A stretch of 33,938 bases of DNA from a virus: positions 1 through 33,938 of IMG/VR virus record IMGVR_UViG_3300023179_000302; one strand, 5' to 3'. The stretch's first letter is position 1, and every line of letters starts with the position of its first letter. Below the pieces are notes generated by a model, which was not told the DNA's origin, made no database searches, and was given only the letters and a program-made list of their open reading frames with translations. A program made the position numbers and the translations under genes. Shown here in pieces: positions 2,626 to 32,153 of the stretch.

Positions 2626-2653
2626 TCAAAGTTCTGGTTTCAAGTTTCATACT
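2626..2653. repeat. Heptamer array at the 3' end of the portal gene
   Basis: Units TCAAAGT, TCTGGTT, TCAAGTT and TCATACT. The portal stop codon (complement of 2653-2655) touches its end. Confidence 0.6.
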
Positions 2654-4809
2654 TAGGCGGCGGCAGGGGTTGCGGTGGCGCCGCGGGCGGCGAAGGCTCC
2701 GCCCATGGATTGGGGCTGGCTGGCTAACGCGGGGACGGCGCCTACTCGGCCGATCTGGGCGTTTTGGATTTGGGTCATTTGGAATTGGAGGGCTTGGGCT
2801 CGGGCATCGACCATGCCTTTGTAGATTTCGTCGCCGGCGTAGCGTTGCTGGAGCTGGGGATTCGCCTGGATGGCGCCTTGGAGGACTTGGAGGCGGAGCT
2901 GGGGGTTGACGCCTTGTTCGGGTAACGGGGGTTCGACGCCGGCGGCGATCTTGGTGAGGGCGAGTTGTTCGTCTTCGGCCTCTTGGGCGGTGGCGACTTG
3001 TTGGCTGCGGACGATCATGGACGCCAGGCTCGGATCGACGGCGCCGACGATGAAGTTGACCAATCCGGCGCGGTCGATGACGCCGGCGACGTCGAGGGGG
3101 ACGGCGACCTTGGCGATGTATTCGAGCTTTTTTCCGAGGACTTCGGCGTCGAGGTCGCGGACGTCGAATTCGGTGACGAGGTCGTAGCGGCCTTGGATGG
3201 CTTCGCGGGATACCTGGAAGGGGGCGGGCATGGCGCCGGCGACGCGGGCGATCTCGGTGTCCGAGAGGTATTGCTGCATCAAGGCGAAGGCTTGGGCCAT
3301 GACGGCTTTGCAGCTGCGGAGCCAGCGGTCGACCATGGTTTGCTGCGTCAGCATGGTAAGCGGCTGCGGGACCGACTGGCTGAAGCGGCCGAAGTATTCG
3401 TCCACGTCGCGGCGGGTGGCGGCTTCGATTTCGATGGTGCCGCTGTCGAATCTCGGTGGATCCATCCATCCGAATTCGTTGGGCCTTCTCTCCGGGATCT
3501 GGGCGCCGGGGCCGAAGATGAGGTTCAACTTGCCGCGGTTGGCGGGGACGCGGACGGGCGGGAGGACGGCGACGGCGGCGCGGTCGCTGCGGAAGTCGCG
3601 CTGGGTCTTGATCTCATACTGCTGGCTCTCGAGGAGCTCGGGGACGCCGCGGGATTCAAGGAGGTTGCGGGAGATGCGTTCGCGGGCGAATTCGACGAAG
3701 GGGTAGTCGCCGTGGCTATACGGGAGGAGTTCGGAGACGGCGACTTCGTCGGCGACGGATTCGTGAAGGACGGTGTAGTGGACGCGGGTGGTTTGGTCCT
3801 TGTTGAATTGCTTCTGGTAGTAGTGCCAGAGCTCGATCATCTCGCGCTCGGTTTCGAGGTTGATGATTTCTTGGCGGTAGTAGTTGCGGATGGGCCTGCG
3901 ATAGCTGCCTTTGTGTTTGAGGGCTTCGGTGACGAAGGCTTCGTCGTAGCCGTCGGTGACGATGCGTTCGCGGAGTTCGGTTTCGGTGACGAGCTCGCGC
4001 CAAGCGACGTAGCGGGCGCGTTGGAGGTCGGCCGTCTGAGCCGGGAAATAAATATCTTCCCACGGCTCGAGGGCGACGAATTCGGGGCGGTTCTCGAAGA
4101 GGTAGGGGTTCTCGTAGGTGCAGGCGCCGGTGTTGCGGAGGTCGCGGACGCAGCCGACTTTGCCGGCGGCGGGGCCGAAGAGGTCGCTGAGCATTTGCTT
4201 GGCGTCGTCTTCCTGGAGCGGGTCCATGATGCTCTCGAGGAGGATCTGGATGACGGGGTCGCCGGTTTCGGCGAGCATGGCGGCGAGCTGGTCGAGGGTG
4301 ATGGTCTTCGACTCGGTGCGGGTGGTGCGGCGCCAGAAAACGCCCATGATCCCCAGGCCGTATTGCTCTTGCATTTGCGCGAGGAGCTCGACTTCGCGGC
4401 GGAGGTCGTCGGCGCAGTGCTGGAAGAGCATCCATTTGAGCGCGGTCTCGGCGCTGACTTTGGCGGCGTAGTCGCCGCTCTCGACGGGCTGGAGCTGGAG
4501 TTTGCTGCGGAAGAAGGCGTTGGTGAGGAGGGCGACGTTCTCGTTGCAGATTTGGTCGGCGAGGCGGACGCGGGCGTCGGAGGCGCCTTCCCAAGGGAAG
4601 GCTTGGCGGCCGAGGGCGGCGGTGTGCTTGCGTCCGTCGGGGCTTTGGCCGGACCAGATGGCGTGGCGGACTTCGTAGTTGCGCTGCTTTTTGTCGAGGT
4701 AGCCGGAGACGTCGGACTCGGCCTCTTGGATGTTGAGGAGGAAGCCGCGGATGTCGTCCGCGGAGGGCCTGCCGAGGGTGGCTTCGTAGTTGTAGCCGGA
4801 GGAGTCCAC
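2653..4809 (-). CDS. Portal protein
   Basis: 718 residues, within the usual size of podovirus portals (about 500-750). The portal is the dodecameric ring at the capsid vertex through which the terminase packs DNA. Supporting features are a helical N-terminus with YLDKKQRNYEVRHAIWSGQ near residues 37-55, FPWEGASDARVRLADQICNE (about 72-91), which I recall as typical of large portals of this group, a long central stem/wing region, and a Gln/Ala-rich C-terminus (about 630-718) suited to the barrel and crown. The GTG start overlaps the stop of the upstream 143-aa gene (TAGTG), suggesting translational coupling. Order in the operon (capsid, decoration, small protein, portal) differs from T7, where portal precedes scaffold. 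Confidence is high for portal, low for any subfamily. Confidence 0.85.
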   Translation of the reverse strand: MDSSGYNYEATLGRPSADDIRGFLLNIQEAESDVSGYLDKKQRNYEVRHAIWSGQSPDGRKHTAALGRQAFPWEGASDARVRLADQICNENVALLTNAFFRSKLQLQPVESGDYAAKVSAETALKWMLFQHCADDLRREVELLAQMQEQYGLGIMGVFWRRTTRTESKTITLDQLAAMLAETGDPVIQILLESIMDPLQEDDAKQMLSDLFGPAAGKVGCVRDLRNTGACTYENPYLFENRPEFVALEPWEDIYFPAQTADLQRARYVAWRELVTETELRERIVTDGYDEAFVTEALKHKGSYRRPIRNYYRQEIINLETEREMIELWHYYQKQFNKDQTTRVHYTVLHESVADEVAVSELLPYSHGDYPFVEFARERISRNLLESRGVPELLESQQYEIKTQRDFRSDRAAVAVLPPVRVPANRGKLNLIFGPGAQIPERRPNEFGWMDPPRFDSGTIEIEAATRRDVDEYFGRFSQSVPQPLTMLTQQTMVDRWLRSCKAVMAQAFALMQQYLSDTEIARVAGAMPAPFQVSREAIQGRYDLVTEFDVRDLDAEVLGKKLEYIAKVAVPLDVAGVIDRAGLVNFIVGAVDPSLASMIVRSQQVATAQEAEDEQLALTKIAAGVEPPLPEQGVNPQLRLQVLQGAIQANPQLQQRYAGDEIYKGMVDARAQALQFQMTQIQNAQIGRVGAVPALASQPQSMGGAFAARGATATPAAA

Positions 4810-5919: not shown

Positions 5920-6933
5920 TTAGTCCGCGGTGCTGGCGATCTTGCCGTGCACGAGGGGGTTATCGACTTGCAAAGCAGCAATGGTGTCGACAATACCCCT
6001 GGGCCCCCCGCCGGCGTCGTCCAAAGGCAAATATCTCGGACGGCGGTTGTAGCGGATCGAGACGCCATCCATGTCGAGGATGTAACCGCGGCGCAGCTGG
6101 GAAGCTGTGACTTGGTCTTTCGCAAGAAATAGGGATGGTGTGAGGGCCAACTCGCCGAAGTCGCCGATGAAAATATCGACCTTCGCCGTGTAGCTGAGGT
6201 CCGCGCTGTCTTGGTTGAAGAGGCGGACGGTGGCGCCGGTGTTGGCCGAGCCGAACTGGACTTGCTGGAAGCCGGTGAAGCGGCGTTTCAGCGTGGGTCC
6301 GCAGAGCAAGGTGTAGCTCTTGTTCTTGCCGCACTGCTCATACAACGACTGGAGCAGCGCCTGGATGGTGCCATCCGTGATGCTGTTGGTCGCGGTCGTG
6401 GTGATCGAGGCAGTGGGTGTGCGGTAGGCCGACGGAACGGCCGTGGCTGAGTCCGATTGCGCACCGTTGCTGATCCAGCTACCCAGGCCCCTCGTTTTAT
6501 AGGGTGTGTTGCCGGATTGTTCGGTGCTGTCTTGGTCGGAGCAGAACACGGATTCGAGGTCACGAGCGAGTTCCTGCAAGGCCCGGGTCACCGATCTGGC
6601 CATCTCACGCTTGCGGCCGATGCCGGCGACATCCGAGACGGACTCGGCGAGGTCGTCGACCTTGGGCAGACGCCACATCTTTTGGATGCGGCCGTAGAGG
6701 CGGGCGCGGTTGGCAGCTTGGTTAGCGAACGTGGTAGCGTCCTGGTTGGAGAGCACGCCGGTGAGGACGGGCTCGTTCATTGCGTCGACGAGCCAGCTAA
6801 AGAGCGGGTTGGTCGGTTCTTTGGATTTCTTGGCCATCGAGAGCAACGGAGTGCTCTTTTGGTCCGCAACCGCGATGAGGTCCGCGAGATCCTCGCGTGC
6901 GCCCACCTGGTTGGTAATGAGAAGTTCAGCCAT
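5920..6933 (-). CDS. Major capsid protein
   Basis: 337 residues, the usual size of an HK97-fold coat protein. The start MAELLITNQVGAREDLADLI, followed by STPLLSMAKKSKEPTNPLFS and the central RSVTRALQELARDLESVFCS, matches the SU10/DUF5309-type major capsid family as I know it. It assembles the icosahedral shell around the scaffold. It lies between the acidic scaffold-like gene and the decoration gene, the standard head-gene order. A strong SD sequence (GGAGGAAAAC) precedes the ATG. The middle (about residues 140-200) is rich in Ser/Thr, as expected of surface loops. Confidence 0.85.
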   Translation of the reverse strand: MAELLITNQVGAREDLADLIAVADQKSTPLLSMAKKSKEPTNPLFSWLVDAMNEPVLTGVLSNQDATTFANQAANRARLYGRIQKMWRLPKVDDLAESVSDVAGIGRKREMARSVTRALQELARDLESVFCSDQDSTEQSGNTPYKTRGLGSWISNGAQSDSATAVPSAYRTPTASITTTATNSITDGTIQALLQSLYEQCGKNKSYTLLCGPTLKRRFTGFQQVQFGSANTGATVRLFNQDSADLSYTAKVDIFIGDFGELALTPSLFLAKDQVTASQLRRGYILDMDGVSIRYNRRPRYLPLDDAGGGPRGIVDTIAALQVDNPLVHGKIASTAD

Positions 6934-22817: not shown

Positions 22818-23087
22818 TTACTTGCCAGGCCCCGCCGGATCATCACGCATCATTAGATGCCCCCCGGCAAACGCGCAGCCCAAGCACGCGACAAACCCCA
22901 GCACCCACGGCCAACCCGCCACCGCCGCCGCGAAAATCCCGCGGCCCCATTCCAGCTTCCCCTGGTAATCCCACGTCGCAAACACCGACGGCCCTTGCCA
23001 CGTCGCACCCAGCACCCCCGACATAAACGCACAAGCCAGCGCACCATAACACCCCACCGCCAGCAACACCCACGCAAGCGCCTTCAT
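22818..23087 (-). CDS. Two-helix membrane protein beside the integrase cassette
   Basis: 89 residues from ATG 23087, which overlaps the stop of the FGE-like gene (TGATG). Two hydrophobic helices (LAWVLLAVGCYGALACAFMS and FAAAVAGWPWVLGFVACLGC) joined by a polar loop with Trp. A holin-like or lysogenic-conversion membrane protein is possible; a role in exclusion is another. No family recognised. Confidence 0.6.
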   Translation of the reverse strand: MKALAWVLLAVGCYGALACAFMSGVLGATWQGPSVFATWDYQGKLEWGRGIFAAAVAGWPWVLGFVACLGCAFAGGHLMMRDDPAGPGK

Positions 23088-24046
23088 CAATTCCACTTCG
23101 CCAGGCGAAGCCCCATCCACTGATTCACCGCCGCCGCCGGCTGCTCACCCCGCCGCGTCGACCGCACCGACAGCTCCCCCAGCGTCGCATAAGCCCCGCC
23201 GCGAAACCGGCGCGGCGTCATCCCCACCGTTGCCAAATCAAAACACCACTCCGCCACATTCCCACTCATGTCATACAGCCCCAACTCATTCCCCAGCCGC
23301 GTCCCCACCCGTTGAGCCGACCCCGCATTCATCGAATACCAAGCCACCGCGCCCACCTCATTCGACCCCGCATACGTATATCCGCCGCTCTTCGTCCCGC
23401 CTCGAGCCGCCCACTCCCACTCCCGCTCACTTGGCAACCTCCACCCATTCCCGCCCACCATCGCCACGTCATCCCGCACCCCCGACCGATACACCGCGCC
23501 GCCCACCTGATACACCGGCGACAACCCCGACCACTCCGACAACGCATTGCACCACTTCACCGCATCATGCCAAGTGATCCCGCCCACCGGAAAATCATCC
23601 CCCGCATACGACCCCGCGCCAATGTCATAACCATTCGCCGCCGCCCACACCCGCACCGGCGCCCATTGCGAACCCTTCACCTCATACCGCGTTATGACAA
23701 ACCCGTCGATCCACCCCGACCCGAACCACGCCGACTGCACCCCTCCATCCACCGTCACCCCATCGAACACCGGCAGCGGCGTCGGTGACGGCGACGGACT
23801 CGGCGACGGCGTAGGCTCCGCCACCTCCGTCACCTCGCCCCGCATCCGGAAAAACCCCGCATCATTTGTCACCCTTCCCGCCTTCACCTGCCCATTCTGC
23901 AACATCCCCACCTCGATCACGACCGGCACCCACGGCCCACCCGGCTCATCCGCCCGCTCCAACCCCACCACCACCTCCACCTGCTTCCCCACAACCGCGA
24001 CCGCCGACCCGACAACCAAGAACCAGACAAGATACTGCGCTTTCAT
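23087..24046 (-). CDS. Exported FGE-sulfatase-fold (C-type-lectin-like) protein
   Basis: 319 residues. Residues 1-20 form a signal peptide-like helix. About 20-75 resemble a beta-domain (VVVGLERADEPGGPWVPVVI), a SPSPSPTP linker follows (about 82-95), then the FGE/SUMF1 fold: NGYDIGAGSYAGDDFPVGGI, WHDAVKWCNALSEWSGLSPV, GNGWRLPSEREWEWAARGGT, LGLYDMSGNVAEWCFDLATV and a C-terminal RRFRGGAYATLGE to GLRLAK. True formylglycine-generating enzymes have two Cys near RGG-x5-C-x4-C; these are absent, so an active enzyme is unlikely. The fold is more likely a binding module, as in phage surface or DGR-target proteins, but no reverse transcriptase or template repeat is visible. ATGA overlap with the lipoprotein gene. 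Confidence 0.75.
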   Translation of the reverse strand: MKAQYLVWFLVVGSAVAVVGKQVEVVVGLERADEPGGPWVPVVIEVGMLQNGQVKAGRVTNDAGFFRMRGEVTEVAEPTPSPSPSPSPTPLPVFDGVTVDGGVQSAWFGSGWIDGFVITRYEVKGSQWAPVRVWAAANGYDIGAGSYAGDDFPVGGITWHDAVKWCNALSEWSGLSPVYQVGGAVYRSGVRDDVAMVGGNGWRLPSEREWEWAARGGTKSGGYTYAGSNEVGAVAWYSMNAGSAQRVGTRLGNELGLYDMSGNVAEWCFDLATVGMTPRRFRGGAYATLGELSVRSTRRGEQPAAAVNQWMGLRLAKWN

Positions 24047-24423
24047 GGCCCGAAACTAAGCCCCGGCCGCGCCTCCAGCCAAGGCCGAATATCCAACAGC
24101 ATCCGCTCCGGCACCGGCTCACCCCGCTGAAGCCGCCGCCACACATGCGCCCCCGTCGGCGTATCCGTCGCCCGGATCACCACCGAGGGCCCCACCGGCA
24201 GCCCCTCCTCCGAAGTCCGCACCCGCACCGCGATCGGCGCCACCCCCACATACTCATTATTCCGCTCGATATACGCCCCCCGCGGAATCGTCTGCACCAG
24301 CACATCCCGAAAATACTCCACCTCCGGCACCGGCTCAGGTTCCGGTCCCGTGGCACAACCCACCACCGCCGCCGCGACTACAGCGGCGCCGGCTCGTGCA
24401 CAAGCGCGTGATAATGCTTCCAT
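24043..24423 (-). CDS. Small lipoprotein with PEGA-like region
   Basis: 126 residues with an ATG at 24423, 46 nt inside the end of the integrase gene. A lipobox VVGC at 20-23 predicts lipidation at C23 and outer-membrane or periplasmic location. IPRGAYIERNNEYVGVAPIA (about 52-71) has the PEGA pattern (polar strand, G-x-x-x-G-x-x-P). The rest is strand-rich (PSVVIRATDTPTGAHVWRRL). PEGA domains are often in cell-wall- or protein-binding surface proteins. The gene is part of the integrase, lipoprotein, FGE, membrane-protein cassette, all with overlapping ends, suggesting expression from the prophage. Confidence 0.65.
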   Translation of the reverse strand: MEALSRACARAGAAVVAAAVVGCATGPEPEPVPEVEYFRDVLVQTIPRGAYIERNNEYVGVAPIAVRVRTSEEGLPVGPSVVIRATDTPTGAHVWRRLQRGEPVPERMLLDIRPWLEARPGLSFGP

Positions 24424-25523
24424 GTTGTCTTGATGTCCCCGTGACGCAGCAACCGACTCGCCACCTCGATTCCATCCCGCATCGCAATCTCCGCGCCGAA
24501 CTGCTTCCGCAACTCATACGCCCCCTTCGTCCGCTCCGGAATAAACGGACGCACAAACGCATTGATCGTCCGGTGCGTCAACGCATGAGCATCCGTAGGA
24601 TTCGCCCGCGGTATGACAAACTCCCCATCCCGCCCCAGTGCCCGCCGCAACTGAGCCAATAAACGCAACCGCACCGGCACCTCCCCGCTCCGCCCCTTCG
24701 GCTTCCACCACGAACCATCCGGCAACCGCCGCCGCACCAACTGCAAAAGCGGCGACCGCTTCCCCTTCACCACCCAATCCCGACGAAGCGCCGCCACCTC
24801 CACATTCCGCAGCCCGCAATACCGCATCAACGCCCACACCGCCCAGACTCTACGCTCCTCCAGGTCCGCCGACGTCCGCAACCTCTCCGCCGCCGCATCC
24901 ATCTCCTTCAACGTCGCCGCCGGAATCAAAGTGAACCCCTCAAACTCCTCCTCATCATCCTTCGTCTCCACCCGCACCTTACGAAGCTCCGACACATCCG
25001 GCATCACGAGCTTCGCATCCCGATACCAATCCATCGCAACAGGCTGGAACATCGCCAGGATCTGCCGCGCCGTAGACTTCCGCCCCTCCGGCGACCCCGG
25101 CCAAGCCCGCAAATAACTCCGCAACTCCGAAGCCGAGCACCGCGTCATCGCCACCGCATCCTCATCCCCACCCGCAAACGACCGCACCCACTTACGCAGC
25201 GTCGACACATTATTCCGACGTGTCGAAGCCTCCGACATCTGCAACCAAACTTTACAAATATCCCCGACCGACGCATACCCCGGCCGCGCCATCGTCTCCC
25301 GCGCATCGCCCCCGGCCAGCAGCTGCTTGGCAATAATCTTCGCTTGCGCCAGCGCCAACTTCTTGTCAGAGTGTCCAGTCGATCGGTTATGACGCTTACC
25401 ATGCACCAGCACCCGGTAATACCAACAATTACTGTCCTTCGGTTTATACACCGACACCTCGCCATGCTTACGCTGACGCCGAGCCACTTTCTGTGCCACT
25501 TCCATACGCGCAGCATCGCTCAC
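24378..25523 (-). CDS. int: Tyrosine-type site-specific integrase
   Basis: 381 residues from a GTG at 25523; the ATG at 25505 is an alternative. It inserts and excises phage DNA at attP/attB. The N-terminal arm-binding domain contains SVYKPKDSNCWYYRVLVHGK and the core-binding domain SASELRSYLRAWPGSPEGRK. Catalytic residues are R239 (CGLRNVEV), a Lys near 274-277, R339 (YELRK, where the usual His is Tyr336), H361 (LLRHGD) and the nucleophile Tyr371 (TTWKHYHAL). The substitution of His by Tyr in the second motif is tolerated in some members. The attP lies in the 201 bp upstream. Confidence 0.9.
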   Translation of the reverse strand: MSDAARMEVAQKVARRQRKHGEVSVYKPKDSNCWYYRVLVHGKRHNRSTGHSDKKLALAQAKIIAKQLLAGGDARETMARPGYASVGDICKVWLQMSEASTRRNNVSTLRKWVRSFAGGDEDAVAMTRCSASELRSYLRAWPGSPEGRKSTARQILAMFQPVAMDWYRDAKLVMPDVSELRKVRVETKDDEEEFEGFTLIPAATLKEMDAAAERLRTSADLEERRVWAVWALMRYCGLRNVEVAALRRDWVVKGKRSPLLQLVRRRLPDGSWWKPKGRSGEVPVRLRLLAQLRRALGRDGEFVIPRANPTDAHALTHRTINAFVRPFIPERTKGAYELRKQFGAEIAMRDGIEVASRLLRHGDIKTTWKHYHALVHEPAPL

Positions 25524-25614
25524 GTGTGCGCATCTTGCAAGAGAAATCTTTCCTCGAAATCAGAAATCTTAACAGAGGCCCTTGGCCCGCTGCTAAGAAC
25601 TTATAAGAGATTTT

Positions 25615-25653
25615 GCGGCCATAGCTCAATTGGATAGAGCATCTGACTACGGA
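25615..25653 (+). tRNA. 5' half of tRNA-Arg(ACG), probable attP core
   Basis: Acceptor strand GCGGCCA, then TA, D-arm GCTC/GAGC, the anticodon stem TCTGA and loop CTACGGA with anticodon ACG at 25649-25651. The following bases (CCGCTGG) do not match the expected TCAGA, so the gene breaks off at the end of the anticodon loop. The 3' half, T-arm and CCA end are absent. This is a tRNA fragment as carried at phage attachment sites, with crossover near the anticodon loop. Confidence 0.8.
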
Positions 25654-25704
25654 CCGCTGGTTTCTCTCTGTCGGATTGGCACTCAGGCCAGTTACCGTGC
25701 CACT

Positions 25705-25720
25705 TGGCGCCGACGCGCCA
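25705..25720 (-). terminator. Short perfect hairpin after the giant virion gene
   Basis: TGGCGC, 4-nt loop, GCGCCA, 5 bp after the stop on the minus strand. There is no T-run. It may protect the 3' end or slow transcription before attP and the integrase. Confidence 0.35.
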
Positions 25721-25724
25721 CTCT

Positions 25725-28700
25725 TCAGAACCTTCTTTGCAGGTAGTCCGCGGCCCTTTGTTCCGGCGGCGCCACCGGAATCTGCCCTACCAGCTCGAGC
25801 GCCTGGTCGAGCAGCCGGATCTCATCCTTGTTGCCCATGAGCACGGATTGCGTGCGGATCGTGGCGGCCCGGCGCAGGTTCCGCTCGAGCGCGAAGTTAC
25901 CGGCCAGCGCCGCCGTCTTGCCGAGCGCCTGGATGTCGTCGATTTGCCGCAGGTTTTGCCGCAGCCCTTGGAGATAGCTCAGCTGCATTTGCAAGCGCAC
26001 CAAGTCCTCCGACCCCAGCTTGTCCGCCGGATACTCCGGATTCCCGTCTCGGTCGAACGCCGCCAGCACGCCATACCCCTTCGCATTGAGCCGCGTATTG
26101 AGCAGCCGCAGCTTGCCCTCCACCTCGTCCGCATTGCGCATCGCTTGGCTGCCGAACCCGATCGGATCGCGGACAAAAAGCCGCCCCACGAACGGCACAT
26201 CCGCCGCCTCCTGCATCGGCCGTCCGCCGTCCATCGCCTCGAGCATCCGCACCGTCTCATCCGCCTGCCGCGAGATCGCTTGCTGCGTGATATACTGCAA
26301 CTTCGCCGGCGAGTAGTTAAACATCTGCCCGATCTTCCGGTAAAACTCCGGCGTCGTGCTGTAGTATTGCTCGCTCGGCGGGAGATTCACCATCCACGGC
26401 GACACGATATTGCGCTGCCGGTAGTTCGACCAATTCATCCCCGCCTCCATCAACGTCGCCAGTTGCGGCCCGAAGAATTGTATCGGCGAGCCCGGGTCCC
26501 CGATCCGCTTCAGCAACATCATCGCCGTCTTGTCCGCGTCCTCCACCGGCCGGCTCAACAGATCATCCATCACCGCGTTGTAGACCACCGAGCCCATCAC
26601 GCCCTCCGGTCCGTAGGGGAACGGAATGCTGAAGCCATTGATGTCCATGAAATTCATCCGATCCTCCACCGGCCGTTGCCGCTCACGGTCCCGGTCCTCC
26701 CGGCGCATCATGAGATACGAAGCCACGGCGGCGCCGCCGAAGATCATTGGCATCATCACGAGCAGCCGCGTCCAAGCCGTCCCCCGCACGCCCGGGTCCG
26801 GATCGCTCAGCTTCTGCACCGCATTGCGCACGCCCTGGAACATCGGATTGAGGAACCCCGGAATGTTCATGATGATCCGCGCATCGGCCACGCCAGGGTG
26901 CTCGTTGAATTGCCCCGCCGCCGTCCAATACTTTATCAGCGCCTCCTCATCGGTCCCGCCGCGGCGCAGCACCGACACCGCCGCGCCCTCGCGTCCCGCC
27001 GTCTCGAAAAACTCCGCCAACGCCGGCCCCGTGAGTCCCACGGCCGAGCCGACCACGGCACCGACCGCCGCACCCACCGGACCGCCCACGACAAATCCTA
27101 CGCCGGCGCCCGGCGCGACGAGATTCATAACATCCCCCAGCTTCCACAACGGGAAGAGCCAGTTGCTCGGCTGCAACACCGTCGCCAGGATTTTCACCAC
27201 CGGGTCCTTCGCCTGGCTCACGTAGAATCCTTGCGAGAACCACTGCCACACCGCCCCGTGCCGGATCGCATTCACCAGCTCCGTCTCGCTCGGTTCCACC
27301 CGACTCAGCAGCAGCCCCTCCGAGAACACCTGCGGATATTTCTTCGTGAACTTATTCATCGTCCCCAGGATATGCGTCCCCCCGGGAATCCAGGCGATCG
27401 GGTCCGGATTCAGAATCGTCTGCGTGAAAATGTCGCGGAACAGATTTCGTATGGCAAACACCGGCCCCTGCGTGATCTGCCGCTTCCAATTCTGTGTCAT
27501 AGGCCCCAGCGCCCAGCTCAAGAACCGCCCCGCCTTGCTCGCCACCTGCGGATTGGCAAACATCCCGAAGATCGCCGGATCGCCCAGCTGGTAATACTCC
27601 CGCTGCCCGTCCCGCAGCAACGACACCACATTCACATCCTCCGGCTTCACCGGCCGCCAGATATCCTTGAAATTCCACGACAGATTGATGTCATCCGGCG
27701 TCAGGTCCGGCCGGAAACCCAGGAGCGGCTCCATCTGATCCGCCACCGCCTCGAGCACCCACGGCTTCACCTCATCGGCACTCACCGAAGCCACCGCCTT
27801 CATCGGCATTTTCAGCTGCACGATCGCCGAGCCCGCAATACTCCGGGCGTCGATCGGTAGCGACTTATCCGTCGCCACCCGCTTCATCGAATCCACCAGC
27901 GTCAGCCCAAACCGATTCCAGTAATACGCCTCGAACGCCGTCCGCACCCGCTCCTCCGTCACCTCGTCGATTTGCCGGATCGCCTCGCCCGAACCCCGTG
28001 CCCGGTAAAGCCCCGTCTGCATCTCGCCGCCGCCCTTGCCCGCCCGGCCGCGTCCCTCCTGCATCACCCGCGGCAAAGGCCAGTAAGTATCCCGCGCCCC
28101 CGTGATCCGGTCCCGCTCGCCCGGCTTCAGCAACCGGCCGAAATCCTTCAAGTCCAACACCGCATCATGGAACGCCGACTGCTCGGCAAACAGCGCATCG
28201 AAATCCTTAATCTCCGTCCGCGCCGTCGTCACGATCGCCTCGAGATCCGCCGGCGTCACGCCCTCCCGCATGCCAGGGTATTCCAGCTTATTCTTCTTCC
28301 ACCGCTCCAAAGACTCCAGCGCCCAGGCCGCTTCGTCGAATTGCCCCAGCTGCTTCGCCGGCACCTTCCGCCGCAGATCCCGCCACGTCGCCTTGGTGAA
28401 ATACGTGAACTTCCCATCCGGCCCCACCGCCCGCAGCCCCTTGCTTCCGCTTTGCCCGCTGATCGCCAGCTGCGTCTCCGCCCCGATCGAGAGGATCATA
28501 TTGTAGGCCGACAAGAGCGGCGTGAGATTCTTCTTCTCCACCGCCCGCATCTTGGCGATCGCCTGGTCGCGGGTCATCCCCACCTCCTTGCGTTGCTTGA
28601 GGATCGCCCGCCGGATCGTCCGGTCGAGCTTCGACACCGGCGCCCCGCTCGAGAGCCCGGCCACCGCATTCTCACCCATCCGGATCAATCCCCCGATCGT

Positions 28701-31700
28701 CTCGCTCGCATTCGGTTTGAGATTCGCCTGCGCGTTGAACATCGCCCACCGCTCCGCCACCGGCTTCTGCTGGAACGCATGCACCGCCCGGGCGCCATCC
28801 CGCAGCGCCTTCGCCATGCCAGGATAAAACTGCTCCGCCACCGCCGACAGCGCCGGCGTCACCTTGAGATTCTGCACCGCCGACGGGTCCGTCATCAGCA
28901 GCCGCGTCCATTCCGCCACGCCCTCGCCGATCCGGTAAGACTGCGCCTGCTCCGGCGTCAGCCCCGCCGGCGGATCGCTCGCCATACTCCCCGGCCGTTG
29001 CGTCAGCCCGATCAACTCCGTCGCGTGAGCCTTGAAGAAATCCGGCACCCGCGCCCGCACCAGGTATTCCAGCCCGTGCCCCGCCTCATGGAAATTGATC
29101 TGGCTCTGCGTGTCCCGCGTGAACGCCATGTGATGCGCCGGCTTGTAATGCGCCGGATGCACCTTCGAAGTCTGCGACCGCGACTTCCGCATCTCCACCC
29201 GCACCGCCCGGTTCACGTGATCCACGATCGTCCGGAAACCCCACCGCTGCCCCCGCTTGAAATTCTGGATGCCCTTGATGAGTCGCCGTCCCTCGCTCGT
29301 CTCGCCCGCTTGCAACACCCAATCCGGCGGCCCCATCGCCGCCATCCCCACCGGCACCGCACCCGGCGGCACCTTCGCCCCGCCACCGGAACGCACCTCC
29401 GGCGGAGGCGTAAGAGGGTCGGATGAAATTGTTGGCGTAGTCGTTACTGACACCTCTGCTGGGTCAACAGCAATCGGGCCTTTTCCAAAATCCACATACA
29501 GCAAATTGGCTGCACTGTCGTAATCCTCGACGTATCCCACCAAGCCCTTTGTTGCTGACGCATCTTGCTCTGCCAGTGGATTGTCCTCTATGCGCCGGCG
29601 GGCCTTGACATATCGTCCGACCAATTGAAATCCGTTTTCGTTTTGCCCAAACAAATCCCCCTGCCCCGGCGCCGGCCGCCGACCTCGCAGCTCCGCGGGC
29701 AACTCGTCGATCGCACCCACCCGGCCATCGCCGTAGGCATACATCGGTTTGCCCGAGCGCAACCGTTGCTCGAGCAGCTCGAAGAGATCGGCCTCCGTCT
29801 CCACCTTGAATCCCTCCGCCTGCAACGCCATCACCACGCGGTCCACATCATCCGCATCCTTGCGGAACAGATCCCTGGCTTGCTTGATCCCCAGGTCCCG
29901 CGAGCCCCGCGCCATCTCCTGCAACCGCTTCAGCTCGCCACCCCACACCGCCTTGTTCTTGCCCTTGGCCGCCGTCGGCAGCCCGCCCGCCATGCGGATC
30001 GCCTCGAGCAAATCGACGCCGCCCTGGCGCATACTCTCCGCCGCCTCCCGCTCCTGCCCCTGCACATACTTGCCCCACGCATCGAAGCTCGCCTGGTCAA
30101 ACACCGCCAGCCCCGTCTCCTCGTCCCGCACGTAATACGGCACCCGCATCTCGTAGAGATCCAGCGCCGCCGCGGACACCGGCTCGTTGTTATTGATCGC
30201 CTCGCGGACGATCCGGAAATGTTCGTTGAAGAGCTCCGTCGTCGCGTCCGGGTTGAAATCCATGTCGATTCCCCGCTCCGTCCCCACCGTTGCGGCGAAA
30301 TCATCCGGCGTCATCATCGCCGGCGTCATCGGCGGAGGCGGCACGATCGTCTCGCCCGTCGGCAAGACATTGACCGGCGCTGTCCGCGGCACCGGCGCCG
30401 CCGTCTCCCCGGCAGGGACCGCTGGCCCAGCGGTCCGCCGCTGTTGCGCCAACGCCTGGGCCGCCCGCAGCGCACCCTCCGGCAAACGCTCCGGCACCGT
30501 GAACGGCACCCGTGCCGTGGCTCGTCCCGCCGACGGCATGAATCCCGCCACCGACGTCACCGGCACCTCGACCTCGATCGGTCCGGTCCGCACGCCCCCG
30601 GCCGCATCCATGCGGGCAATCTCCGCCCGCACCGCGGGCCCCGCCGCCTTGGCCAGCTCCGTCTCCGCCGCCGAAAGTTTCATTCCCGACTTCATCTTCA
30701 TCGCCACCGCGGCCAGATCCCGCTGCGTCGCCATCCGGTTATTGATAAAGAACCCGCCCATGAGAGCGCCTGCCCCCGCCGCCGTGGCAAACCCTCCCGG
30801 CGTGATCTCCTCTCCCCGCACCGCCGCGTCGATCGGATACGCCACCACACCGGTGCCCGCACCCGCCGCCGCCGCCGCACCCGCCTGACGCGCCGCCGCC
30901 GGCAACCCGCCCGCGCCCTGCGCCGTCGTGATGAGCCCCCGGGCGCCCTGCGCCAACGACACCGGCAACGCCACCGCCGCCATGCTCAGCTCCCCGCCCT
31001 GCGTGTATTGCGGATACAACTCCGCCGCCTGCATCACATTGTCATACTGCTCAAAATGTTTCCCGAGCTGCTTGTAAAGAGCGTCATAGCCCGCCCCCGC
31101 CGCAATACCCCCGCCGATACCGCCTACCACACCGCCGGCCGCGGCGCCCACGGCGGCACCCACCGGACCACCCAGCGCCGTCCCCGCCGCTGCGCCCAGC
31201 GCCGCGCCCCCCTGCGCCCCGCCCACCGCGCCCAGCGTCATCGCCCCGCCGCGTCCGGCCCCTTGTAAAAATGCCAACAACCGCGGATCTTGCTGCGCCT
31301 TCTGCTCCAGCTTCCGCCGGTCCTCCACCACCTTGAAAATTTCCCCCTGCGCCGCCTTGATCTTCTCGTAATTCGCCTGCGGCAGCAGCCCGCTTTCAAA
31401 CGCCCGCTGCACTCCCTCCGTGAACCGCTCCGGCGACGAAGTATCGAAGACAATCTGCCCGCCCTCCGGCACCAGGCGAGGCGCCTGGCGCAACGGATCA
31501 GTCGCCATCGGCCCCGTCGAAGGATCGACCACCAGCTTCCCGGTGAACTTAAACGGCGCATCCCCCTCCTCGAACTTCACATCCGTCCCATCCCCCGCTT
31601 CCGGCGTCGTCACCGGCGGAGGCGTCTCCTTCTTGTCGTCCATCACCGCCTTGGCCAGCGCCGCCTCTTGTCCCCCGAACGAAAGATTCAAAGGCTTCGC

Positions 31701-32153
31701 CGCCGGCTCGGTCGTCAACGGCGTCACATTCGAGAAATCAAACCCCTCCGGCACTCCCTGCTCCGCGCTCCCTGCTCCCCGCTCTTGCACCGCCGTCACC
31801 TGCGAGAAATCAAACCCCTCCACCGCCGGAACGACCGGCGGCAGCGGTTCATCCGCTTGCGGTAGGGCGGGACCTCCGGGCCCGCCGTCTTTCGTCGGCA
31901 ACGGCGGCTCGCCATTCTCATCGAGCACCGCCTGCACATTTGGTTCGATCGCGCCCGGCATCGGTTGCTCCAGCGGCGCCAGGACCGGCGCCGGCTCCGG
32001 CGCGATATCCACCTCCGACGGCGTCACCGGACCGTCCGGCCACCGGGCTGAATTCGATTCCTCGAGGATACGACGTTGCTCCTCCTCCGGATCAAACGCC
32101 CGGGGGCGGATCGGCGTCACCACCGAGAAATCGAAACCGGCCATTTGCGACAT
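25725..32153 (-). CDS. Giant internal virion / DNA-ejection protein
   Basis: 2142 residues. Large single proteins of this kind are packed in podovirus heads and form the channel through the host envelope during DNA entry. Seen in order: a disordered Pro/Glu-rich N-terminus with three copies of GFDFS-x-V-T (about 6-13, 112-119, 137-144); a glycine-zipper hydrophobic segment (about 300-360: GGAAGTALGGPVGAAVG-like); LPD38-like regions; an HEAGH zinc-protease-like motif at 1022-1026; RNLFRDIFTQTILNPD near 1560; a second glycine zipper near 1675-1720 (VVGGPVGAAVGAVVGSAVG). In-frame at the N-terminus (about residues 88-97) a GC-rich palindromic repeat codes DGGPGGPALPQ. It may carry several domains, as large polyvalent proteins do. 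No lysozyme/transglycosylase motif was firmly identified. Confidence 0.75.
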   Translation of the reverse strand: MSQMAGFDFSVVTPIRPRAFDPEEEQRRILEESNSARWPDGPVTPSEVDIAPEPAPVLAPLEQPMPGAIEPNVQAVLDENGEPPLPTKDGGPGGPALPQADEPLPPVVPAVEGFDFSQVTAVQERGAGSAEQGVPEGFDFSNVTPLTTEPAAKPLNLSFGGQEAALAKAVMDDKKETPPPVTTPEAGDGTDVKFEEGDAPFKFTGKLVVDPSTGPMATDPLRQAPRLVPEGGQIVFDTSSPERFTEGVQRAFESGLLPQANYEKIKAAQGEIFKVVEDRRKLEQKAQQDPRLLAFLQGAGRGGAMTLGAVGGAQGGAALGAAAGTALGGPVGAAVGAAAGGVVGGIGGGIAAGAGYDALYKQLGKHFEQYDNVMQAAELYPQYTQGGELSMAAVALPVSLAQGARGLITTAQGAGGLPAAARQAGAAAAAGAGTGVVAYPIDAAVRGEEITPGGFATAAGAGALMGGFFINNRMATQRDLAAVAMKMKSGMKLSAAETELAKAAGPAVRAEIARMDAAGGVRTGPIEVEVPVTSVAGFMPSAGRATARVPFTVPERLPEGALRAAQALAQQRRTAGPAVPAGETAAPVPRTAPVNVLPTGETIVPPPPMTPAMMTPDDFAATVGTERGIDMDFNPDATTELFNEHFRIVREAINNNEPVSAAALDLYEMRVPYYVRDEETGLAVFDQASFDAWGKYVQGQEREAAESMRQGGVDLLEAIRMAGGLPTAAKGKNKAVWGGELKRLQEMARGSRDLGIKQARDLFRKDADDVDRVVMALQAEGFKVETEADLFELLEQRLRSGKPMYAYGDGRVGAIDELPAELRGRRPAPGQGDLFGQNENGFQLVGRYVKARRRIEDNPLAEQDASATKGLVGYVEDYDSAANLLYVDFGKGPIAVDPAEVSVTTTPTISSDPLTPPPEVRSGGGAKVPPGAVPVGMAAMGPPDWVLQAGETSEGRRLIKGIQNFKRGQRWGFRTIVDHVNRAVRVEMRKSRSQTSKVHPAHYKPAHHMAFTRDTQSQINFHEAGHGLEYLVRARVPDFFKAHATELIGLTQRPGSMASDPPAGLTPEQAQSYRIGEGVAEWTRLLMTDPSAVQNLKVTPALSAVAEQFYPGMAKALRDGARAVHAFQQKPVAERWAMFNAQANLKPNASETIGGLIRMGENAVAGLSSGAPVSKLDRTIRRAILKQRKEVGMTRDQAIAKMRAVEKKNLTPLLSAYNMILSIGAETQLAISGQSGSKGLRAVGPDGKFTYFTKATWRDLRRKVPAKQLGQFDEAAWALESLERWKKNKLEYPGMREGVTPADLEAIVTTARTEIKDFDALFAEQSAFHDAVLDLKDFGRLLKPGERDRITGARDTYWPLPRVMQEGRGRAGKGGGEMQTGLYRARGSGEAIRQIDEVTEERVRTAFEAYYWNRFGLTLVDSMKRVATDKSLPIDARSIAGSAIVQLKMPMKAVASVSADEVKPWVLEAVADQMEPLLGFRPDLTPDDINLSWNFKDIWRPVKPEDVNVVSLLRDGQREYYQLGDPAIFGMFANPQVASKAGRFLSWALGPMTQNWKRQITQGPVFAIRNLFRDIFTQTILNPDPIAWIPGGTHILGTMNKFTKKYPQVFSEGLLLSRVEPSETELVNAIRHGAVWQWFSQGFYVSQAKDPVVKILATVLQPSNWLFPLWKLGDVMNLVAPGAGVGFVVGGPVGAAVGAVVGSAVGLTGPALAEFFETAGREGAAVSVLRRGGTDEEALIKYWTAAGQFNEHPGVADARIIMNIPGFLNPMFQGVRNAVQKLSDPDPGVRGTAWTRLLVMMPMIFGGAAVASYLMMRREDRDRERQRPVEDRMNFMDINGFSIPFPYGPEGVMGSVVYNAVMDDLLSRPVEDADKTAMMLLKRIGDPGSPIQFFGPQLATLMEAGMNWSNYRQRNIVSPWMVNLPPSEQYYSTTPEFYRKIGQMFNYSPAKLQYITQQAISRQADETVRMLEAMDGGRPMQEAADVPFVGRLFVRDPIGFGSQAMRNADEVEGKLRLLNTRLNAKGYGVLAAFDRDGNPEYPADKLGSEDLVRLQMQLSYLQGLRQNLRQIDDIQALGKTAALAGNFALERNLRRAATIRTQSVLMGNKDEIRLLDQALELVGQIPVAPPEQRAADYLQRRF
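31861..31887. repeat. GC-rich palindromic repeat, copy 8 (in the giant gene)
   Basis: Same inner variant as the other in-gene copy at 13714-13740, here read as GGPGGPALP in the disordered N-terminus. It is the only copy found outside the left half of the window. Confidence 0.85.

Follow-up and report, generated by a model that had tools for sequence, protein, structure and literature searches.

The 5' half of a tRNA-Arg(ACG) gene as the probable attP core of a podovirus-like phage of Chthoniobacterales-type hosts

The window analyzed in this study is a stretch of viral DNA of 33,938 nt. Its positions 25615-25653 are very probably the core of a phage attachment site (attP), which the neighboring tyrosine integrase would recombine with a tRNA-Arg(ACG) gene of the Chthoniobacterales type, with the crossover at the anticodon loop. 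Identity to host genes, conservation of the core, linkage to the integrase gene and arm-like repeats all supported the original prediction of an attP beside an integrase.

The tRNA half and its counterparts in hosts and phages

Direct reading of 25615-25653 (plus strand, as for all attP features given below) gave the order GCGGCCA, TA, GCTC AATTGGATA GAGC, A, TCTGA and CTACGGA. These are bases 1-39 of tRNA-Arg(ACG), comprising the 5' strand of the acceptor, the D-arm, the 5' strand of the anticodon stem and all 7 nt of the loop, including the anticodon ACG. The fragment ends where the anticodon loop ends; the predicted 5' half stopping after this loop was borne out by the direct reading and by intact host genes. 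ARAGORN found no complete tRNA and Rfam no RNA family match in the 33,938-base window, and we concluded that the 3' half is absent. A split or intron-bearing tRNA was ruled out on the same grounds.

The proposed check for identity to a host tRNA gene was run on about 85,000 species genomes. With A or G at base 3, the 39 bases were found exactly in intact tRNA-Arg(ACG) genes at 33 loci. ARAGORN called tRNA-Arg(acg) at 32 of them, and the 33rd was truncated where the retrieved sequence ended. As labelled, the loci were mostly from Spartobacteria/Chthoniobacterales or other Verrucomicrobiota; eight belonged to Fibrobacter or Chitinispirillum/Chitinivibrio-type bacteria and one was labelled Armatimonadetes. 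The window's own allele, G at base 3, occurred at 4 Chthoniobacterales and 7 Fibrobacter-type loci. The G+C content of the window (0.632) fits that of the Chthoniobacterales with the G allele (0.59-0.64) but not that of the Fibrobacter-type carriers (0.41-0.45). Verrucomicrobiota had been named as hosts, which our data supported, and the tRNA match points to Chthoniobacterales. Base 3 was always paired in host tRNAs (G3-C or A3-U), and the phages vary between G and A likewise. Since this base always pairs in the hosts, matching of the allele can serve as a prediction of host range.

The inner 31 bases were single-copy in 17 of 18 carrier genomes. A 13-mer of the anticodon arm was present once in 10 of the 14 host genomes examined; in two genomes one extra copy each was inspected, and both proved to be displaced 3' fragments. 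Displaced 3' fragments of tRNA-Arg(ACG) followed the intact gene at downstream distances of 3.5 and 5.1 kb (locus L053, position 6811, and locus L034, position 1082, minus strand, respectively), suggesting that conventional 3'-type elements also use tRNA-Arg(ACG).

In IMG/VR, the exact 39-mer was found in 9 stretches, which correspond to 8 contigs. Contig 3300032281_000998 was matched at both ends, and since its ends overlap by 123 bp, we regard it as circular with one attP. About 20 phage contigs carried the 39-mer with G or A at base 3. Pattern and protein scans of IMG/VR yielded 19 distinct attP sequences, which formed the set for all conservation counts. The core was constant in the 19 attPs except for base 3, across integrases with identities down to about 57-60%, and the flanks had diverged. 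The mean fraction of the majority base was 0.989 in the core versus 0.64 in the 60 bp to the left and 0.71 in the 60 bp to the right, a difference far beyond chance.

The identity between attP and the host genes stops at the anticodon loop. The host genes continue with TCAGA at all 33 loci, while the first base past the core was C, A or G in all 19 phage sites and never T. This supported the predicted crossover at the loop. We infer that the exact position lies within CTACGGA (25647-25653), which would be the 7-bp crossover (overlap) region. The 5' anticodon-stem strand TCTGA (25642-25646) is a likely core-type half-site of the integrase, as judged from direct reading and the known architecture of att sites at anticodon loops.

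The integrase gene and the arm-like repeats

The gene for the tyrosine-type integrase (24378-25523, minus strand, likely ATG at 25505) matched PHROG 1 integrase (1.2e-16) and also PHROG 216 integrase. It had no Pfam match at 0.01, a PDB search with the integrase profile returned a chance match only, and the catalytic residues were judged by eye only. The integrase gene is divergent, being transcribed away from the tRNA half, and the attP is situated about 110 bp upstream of it. The right-hand neighbor of the attP is a gene for a large polyvalent protein of 2142 aa with an LPD38 domain (25725-32153, minus strand; Pfam PF18857, 2.9e-15). The predicted location of the tRNA half between the integrase and the large gene to its right was correct.

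Paired arm-like repeats flank the core. The sequence CCACTT is present at 25484 and 25496 with a spacing of 12 bp (25484-25501), overlapping the start region of the integrase gene, and has the same positions in most of the 19 attPs. A right-hand pair with the same spacing consists of CCAGTT at 25688 (CCACTT in several relatives) and CCACTT at 25700 (25688-25705). The pair ATCAGA/AACAGA (25559-25576), again with 12-bp spacing, is conserved in the attPs and may represent accessory or arm sites. The element TTGCAAG (25535-25541) recurs as TTATAAG at 25601 (25601-25607). Relative to the core, most attPs have CCACTT at about -130/-118 and +74/+86, and the ATCAGA-like repeats at -55/-43. The density of arm-like motifs was 9.63 per kb in the attP windows versus 0.58 in the contigs (about 17-fold). 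Judged from sequence, this arrangement is the layout expected of arm-type integrase sites, and we consider the repeats putative arm sites.

The half-site pattern was present in none of 213 Chthoniobacterales genomes. No relative of the integrase was found in the scan of about 85,000 species genomes, which used two short peptide patterns only, and no integrase of the window's clade was present at the fetched host tRNA-Arg loci. Sampling could explain that no own-clade lysogen was found among the genomes scanned. The same result would also be expected if the tRNA half were a dead relic, left by an earlier imprecise excision or captured from host DNA, and had no current function. A relic is, however, difficult to reconcile with a core that stayed constant but for one allele while integrases and flanks diverged, and with arm-like repeats kept at fixed spacing, and we regard it as very improbable.

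Expression of the rebuilt tRNA

If 25615-25653 is the attP core, the host tRNA-Arg(ACG) gene, present in one or few copies, would be the partner with which the adjacent integrase recombines it. The strands would be exchanged within the 7 bp of the anticodon loop, which the inverted repeats of the anticodon stem enclose. Integration, which we infer for the window's own clade, would yield a complete tRNA at the integrase end, composed of the phage 5' half and the host 3' half; at the other end, the host promoter would be left with a non-functional 5' half. Completeness of the rebuilt tRNA would be the reason why the phage matches the host over the entire 5' half. As a consequence of the 5'-half polarity, the rebuilt tRNA would lose its native promoter and would presumably be expressed from phage DNA.

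The predicted loss of the tRNA's own upstream region is logically sound; replacement of the upstream region in a chromosome was observed only in genomes G150 and G123, for distant relatives. On contig 58 of G150, the start of a related integrase gene (E 5e-26) adjoins an intact tRNA-Lys(CTT) gene, the 5' end of which faces the integrase gene. At a distance of 45.4 kb, the 5' half of tRNA-Lys(CTT) recurs in the same orientation as an exact 38-nt copy that stops at the loop. This duplicated half also counts in favor of the attP reading. The longest reading frames of this element, read by eye, resemble host-type and restriction-modification genes, and we therefore classed the element as an island. 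Integrase-like upstream sequence is present at its far border, too, and may indicate a tandem array. G123 showed the same geometry of integrase and tRNA, and G202 harbored a 5' half of tRNA-Thr. For tRNA-Ser of G344, no duplicated half was found. Remnants of a G150-like integrase were seen near intact tRNA-Lys genes at loci L150 and L153, which suggests that decayed 5'-type elements left element-derived DNA upstream of these tRNAs.

The upstream regions of the host tRNA-Arg genes showed the pattern TTGAC-17/18-TATNNT, and 22 of 33 reached p < 0.05 against shuffled sequences, versus none of the 19 phage upstream regions with a sigma-70 promoter scoring above shuffles. When the scan was widened to 110 bp, the spacer between the integrase gene and attP, again no sigma-70 promoter above shuffles was found, neither toward the tRNA nor toward the integrase gene. 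Both scans used a sigma-70 matrix that we drew up ourselves, with mononucleotide shuffles as nulls. Since no score was obtained even toward the integrase gene, the scan may miss promoters that these phages use. With the scan silent in both directions, the missing match alone is weak evidence, and the contrast between host and phage is stronger. The TATAAG motif, which had been proposed as the phage promoter, did not hold up in this role. It belongs to the conserved, repeated TTATAAG element of the attPs and is missing in most relatives, many of which have TTACAAG at the aligned position; none of the 19 attP upstream regions was promoter-like, and the integrase gene reads away from the tRNA.

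It is possible, though not probable, that the attP functions as described but that the tRNA is not driven by the phage, with lysogens using other arginine tRNAs or distant or non-consensus transcription. This variant differs from our main conclusion only in the promoter step. It would agree with the different sigma-70 scores of host and phage and with the integrase and most other window genes being transcribed away from the tRNA half. On the other hand, the D-arm bases, which are not needed for strand exchange, are also kept identical. Conservation of the whole 5' half including the D-arm implies selection for a working tRNA, and the single copy of the anticodon arm in most host genomes examined likewise argues against this variant.

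Target polarity among related integrases and in known systems

A profile search with the integrase in the 213 Chthoniobacterales genomes yielded L098 (E 3e-96, 43% identical), and five close relatives of L098 were found in IMG/VR. In all six, a 3' half of tRNA-Lys(CTT) precedes the integrase gene by about 120 bp, on the same strand as that gene. In the 5'-Arg and the 3'-Lys clades alike, it is the integrase side of the loop that is occupied by the tRNA half. In the tree, the 17 integrases with a 5'-half Arg site grouped with a support of 97/97, the 3'-half Lys(CTT) clade was their sister, and the joint node had 100/100. Since the sister phages hold a 3' half in the same integrase-side slot, we concluded that polarity relative to the attP arms was switched within the family. 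Over the whole sampled integrase set four polarity changes are needed, a count that includes unsafe deeper joins; the joins among L099, L100, L130, L131 and L133 are long-branch and were not relied on. The near-palindromic anticodon stem probably makes such a switch mechanically easy.

The slot shared with the sister phages, which holds the half of another tRNA there, also speaks against expression of the 5' half as an RNA (tRNA-half or decoy) instead of a role as attachment core. Such an RNA would account for the conservation of the 39-nt half and for the lack of integrated copies of the clade in the 213 Chthoniobacterales genomes. The fragment, however, ends exactly where att cores at anticodon loops end, the integrase gene and arm-like repeats lie alongside, and the upstream region is without promoter-like sequence, so that we give this explanation hardly any credence. 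Returning to the attP core, we tentatively propose, as a scenario that may well prove wrong, that target polarity flipped in this integrase family while the layout of the attP arms stayed, and that in the 5' clade an essential host tRNA comes to be transcribed from a non-consensus or lysogeny-controlled promoter of the phage, so that the host would depend on the prophage.

Another, distant integrase group (L104-L111, L113-L115), also from the order Chthoniobacterales, is associated with 3' halves of several tRNAs, among them tRNA-Arg, -Lys and -Thr. In this group the loop end faces the integrase gene, so that integration would place this gene at the end opposite the rebuilt tRNA. G217 contained many related integrase genes and fragments, with 8 matches, several of them broken (contigs 3, 20, 21, 22, 45, 51, 52).

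The site combines an end fragment of a host tRNA, an adjacent integrase gene and putative flanking arm-like repeats, as is typical of tyrosine-integrase attPs that target tRNA genes, and the fragment polarity places it in the 5'-half (upstream-replacing) subclass. The unusual polarity had been predicted and is supported by the Islander collection, in which 159 islands have 5' fragments versus 3760 with 3' fragments (total 3919), and crossovers are centered on the anticodon in about half of all islands (PMC4383910). Like the window, the Islander islands with 5' fragments combine a tyrosine integrase, a tRNA target and an attP with a 5' end fragment; they were mapped in sequenced chromosomes (PMC4383910), whereas we describe free Verrucomicrobiota phage contigs and found no lysogen. 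According to a review, rebuilt tRNAs of bacteria nearly always retain the original promoter.

Among archaea, use of a tRNA 5' half is known for pTN3-like integrases (PMC5495485). In pTN3/TKV4-type elements of Thermococcales the att site is likewise a tRNA 5' half (41 bp shared) and the rebuilt tRNA is cut off from its original promoter, but these elements have their attP within the integrase gene itself. Integration splits that gene (suicidal), and transcription of the tRNA then starts at the integrase promoter (PMC8371274, PMC5495485). The window's attP lies outside a divergent integrase gene, about 110 bp upstream, and a suicidal integrase of the pTN3 type was rejected. Given the Islander counts and the archaeal precedent, the site is a new and well-supported case within a known but rare class, and its sister clade adds an informative comparison.

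The mycobacteriophages Boilgate and Omega, like the window, have a common core of 30-45 bp and reconstruct a tRNA on integration, but they carry the 3' half (PMC10865867), so that the host promoter is kept. In the tRNA-dependent lysogeny of Fionnbharth, integration at a tRNA gene also makes the host depend on phage sequence, but the identity of its attP is limited to about 10 bp, and a complete tRNA encoded by the phage provides complementation (PMC10865867). The window has no phage tRNA gene, and its shared 39 bp would restore the host gene; this class was rejected, too. For the marine Verrucomicrobia phage group G11, the host was also assigned by an exact match of a tRNA-fragment attP (PMC3861242); G11 is a different phage group.

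The SU10-type major capsid (5920-6933, 4.9e-43) and portal (2653-4809, 2.1e-7) matches indicated a podovirus-like phage, and Phage C75C1 was the nearest named record by TerL (32% identity). The attP provides this uncultured podovirus-like phage group with a host link at the sequence level, to Chthoniobacterales and allele-specific at base 3. Sister integrases on opposite tRNA halves are a natural comparison that makes recombinase tolerance of target inversion testable, as is the fate of an essential tRNA whose promoter viral DNA replaces. The window also encodes a 319-aa protein with an FGE-sulfatase domain (23087-24046; Pfam 3.3e-26), for which the PHROG label was 'kinase'. The FGE-sulfatase fold is also known from phage variable proteins.
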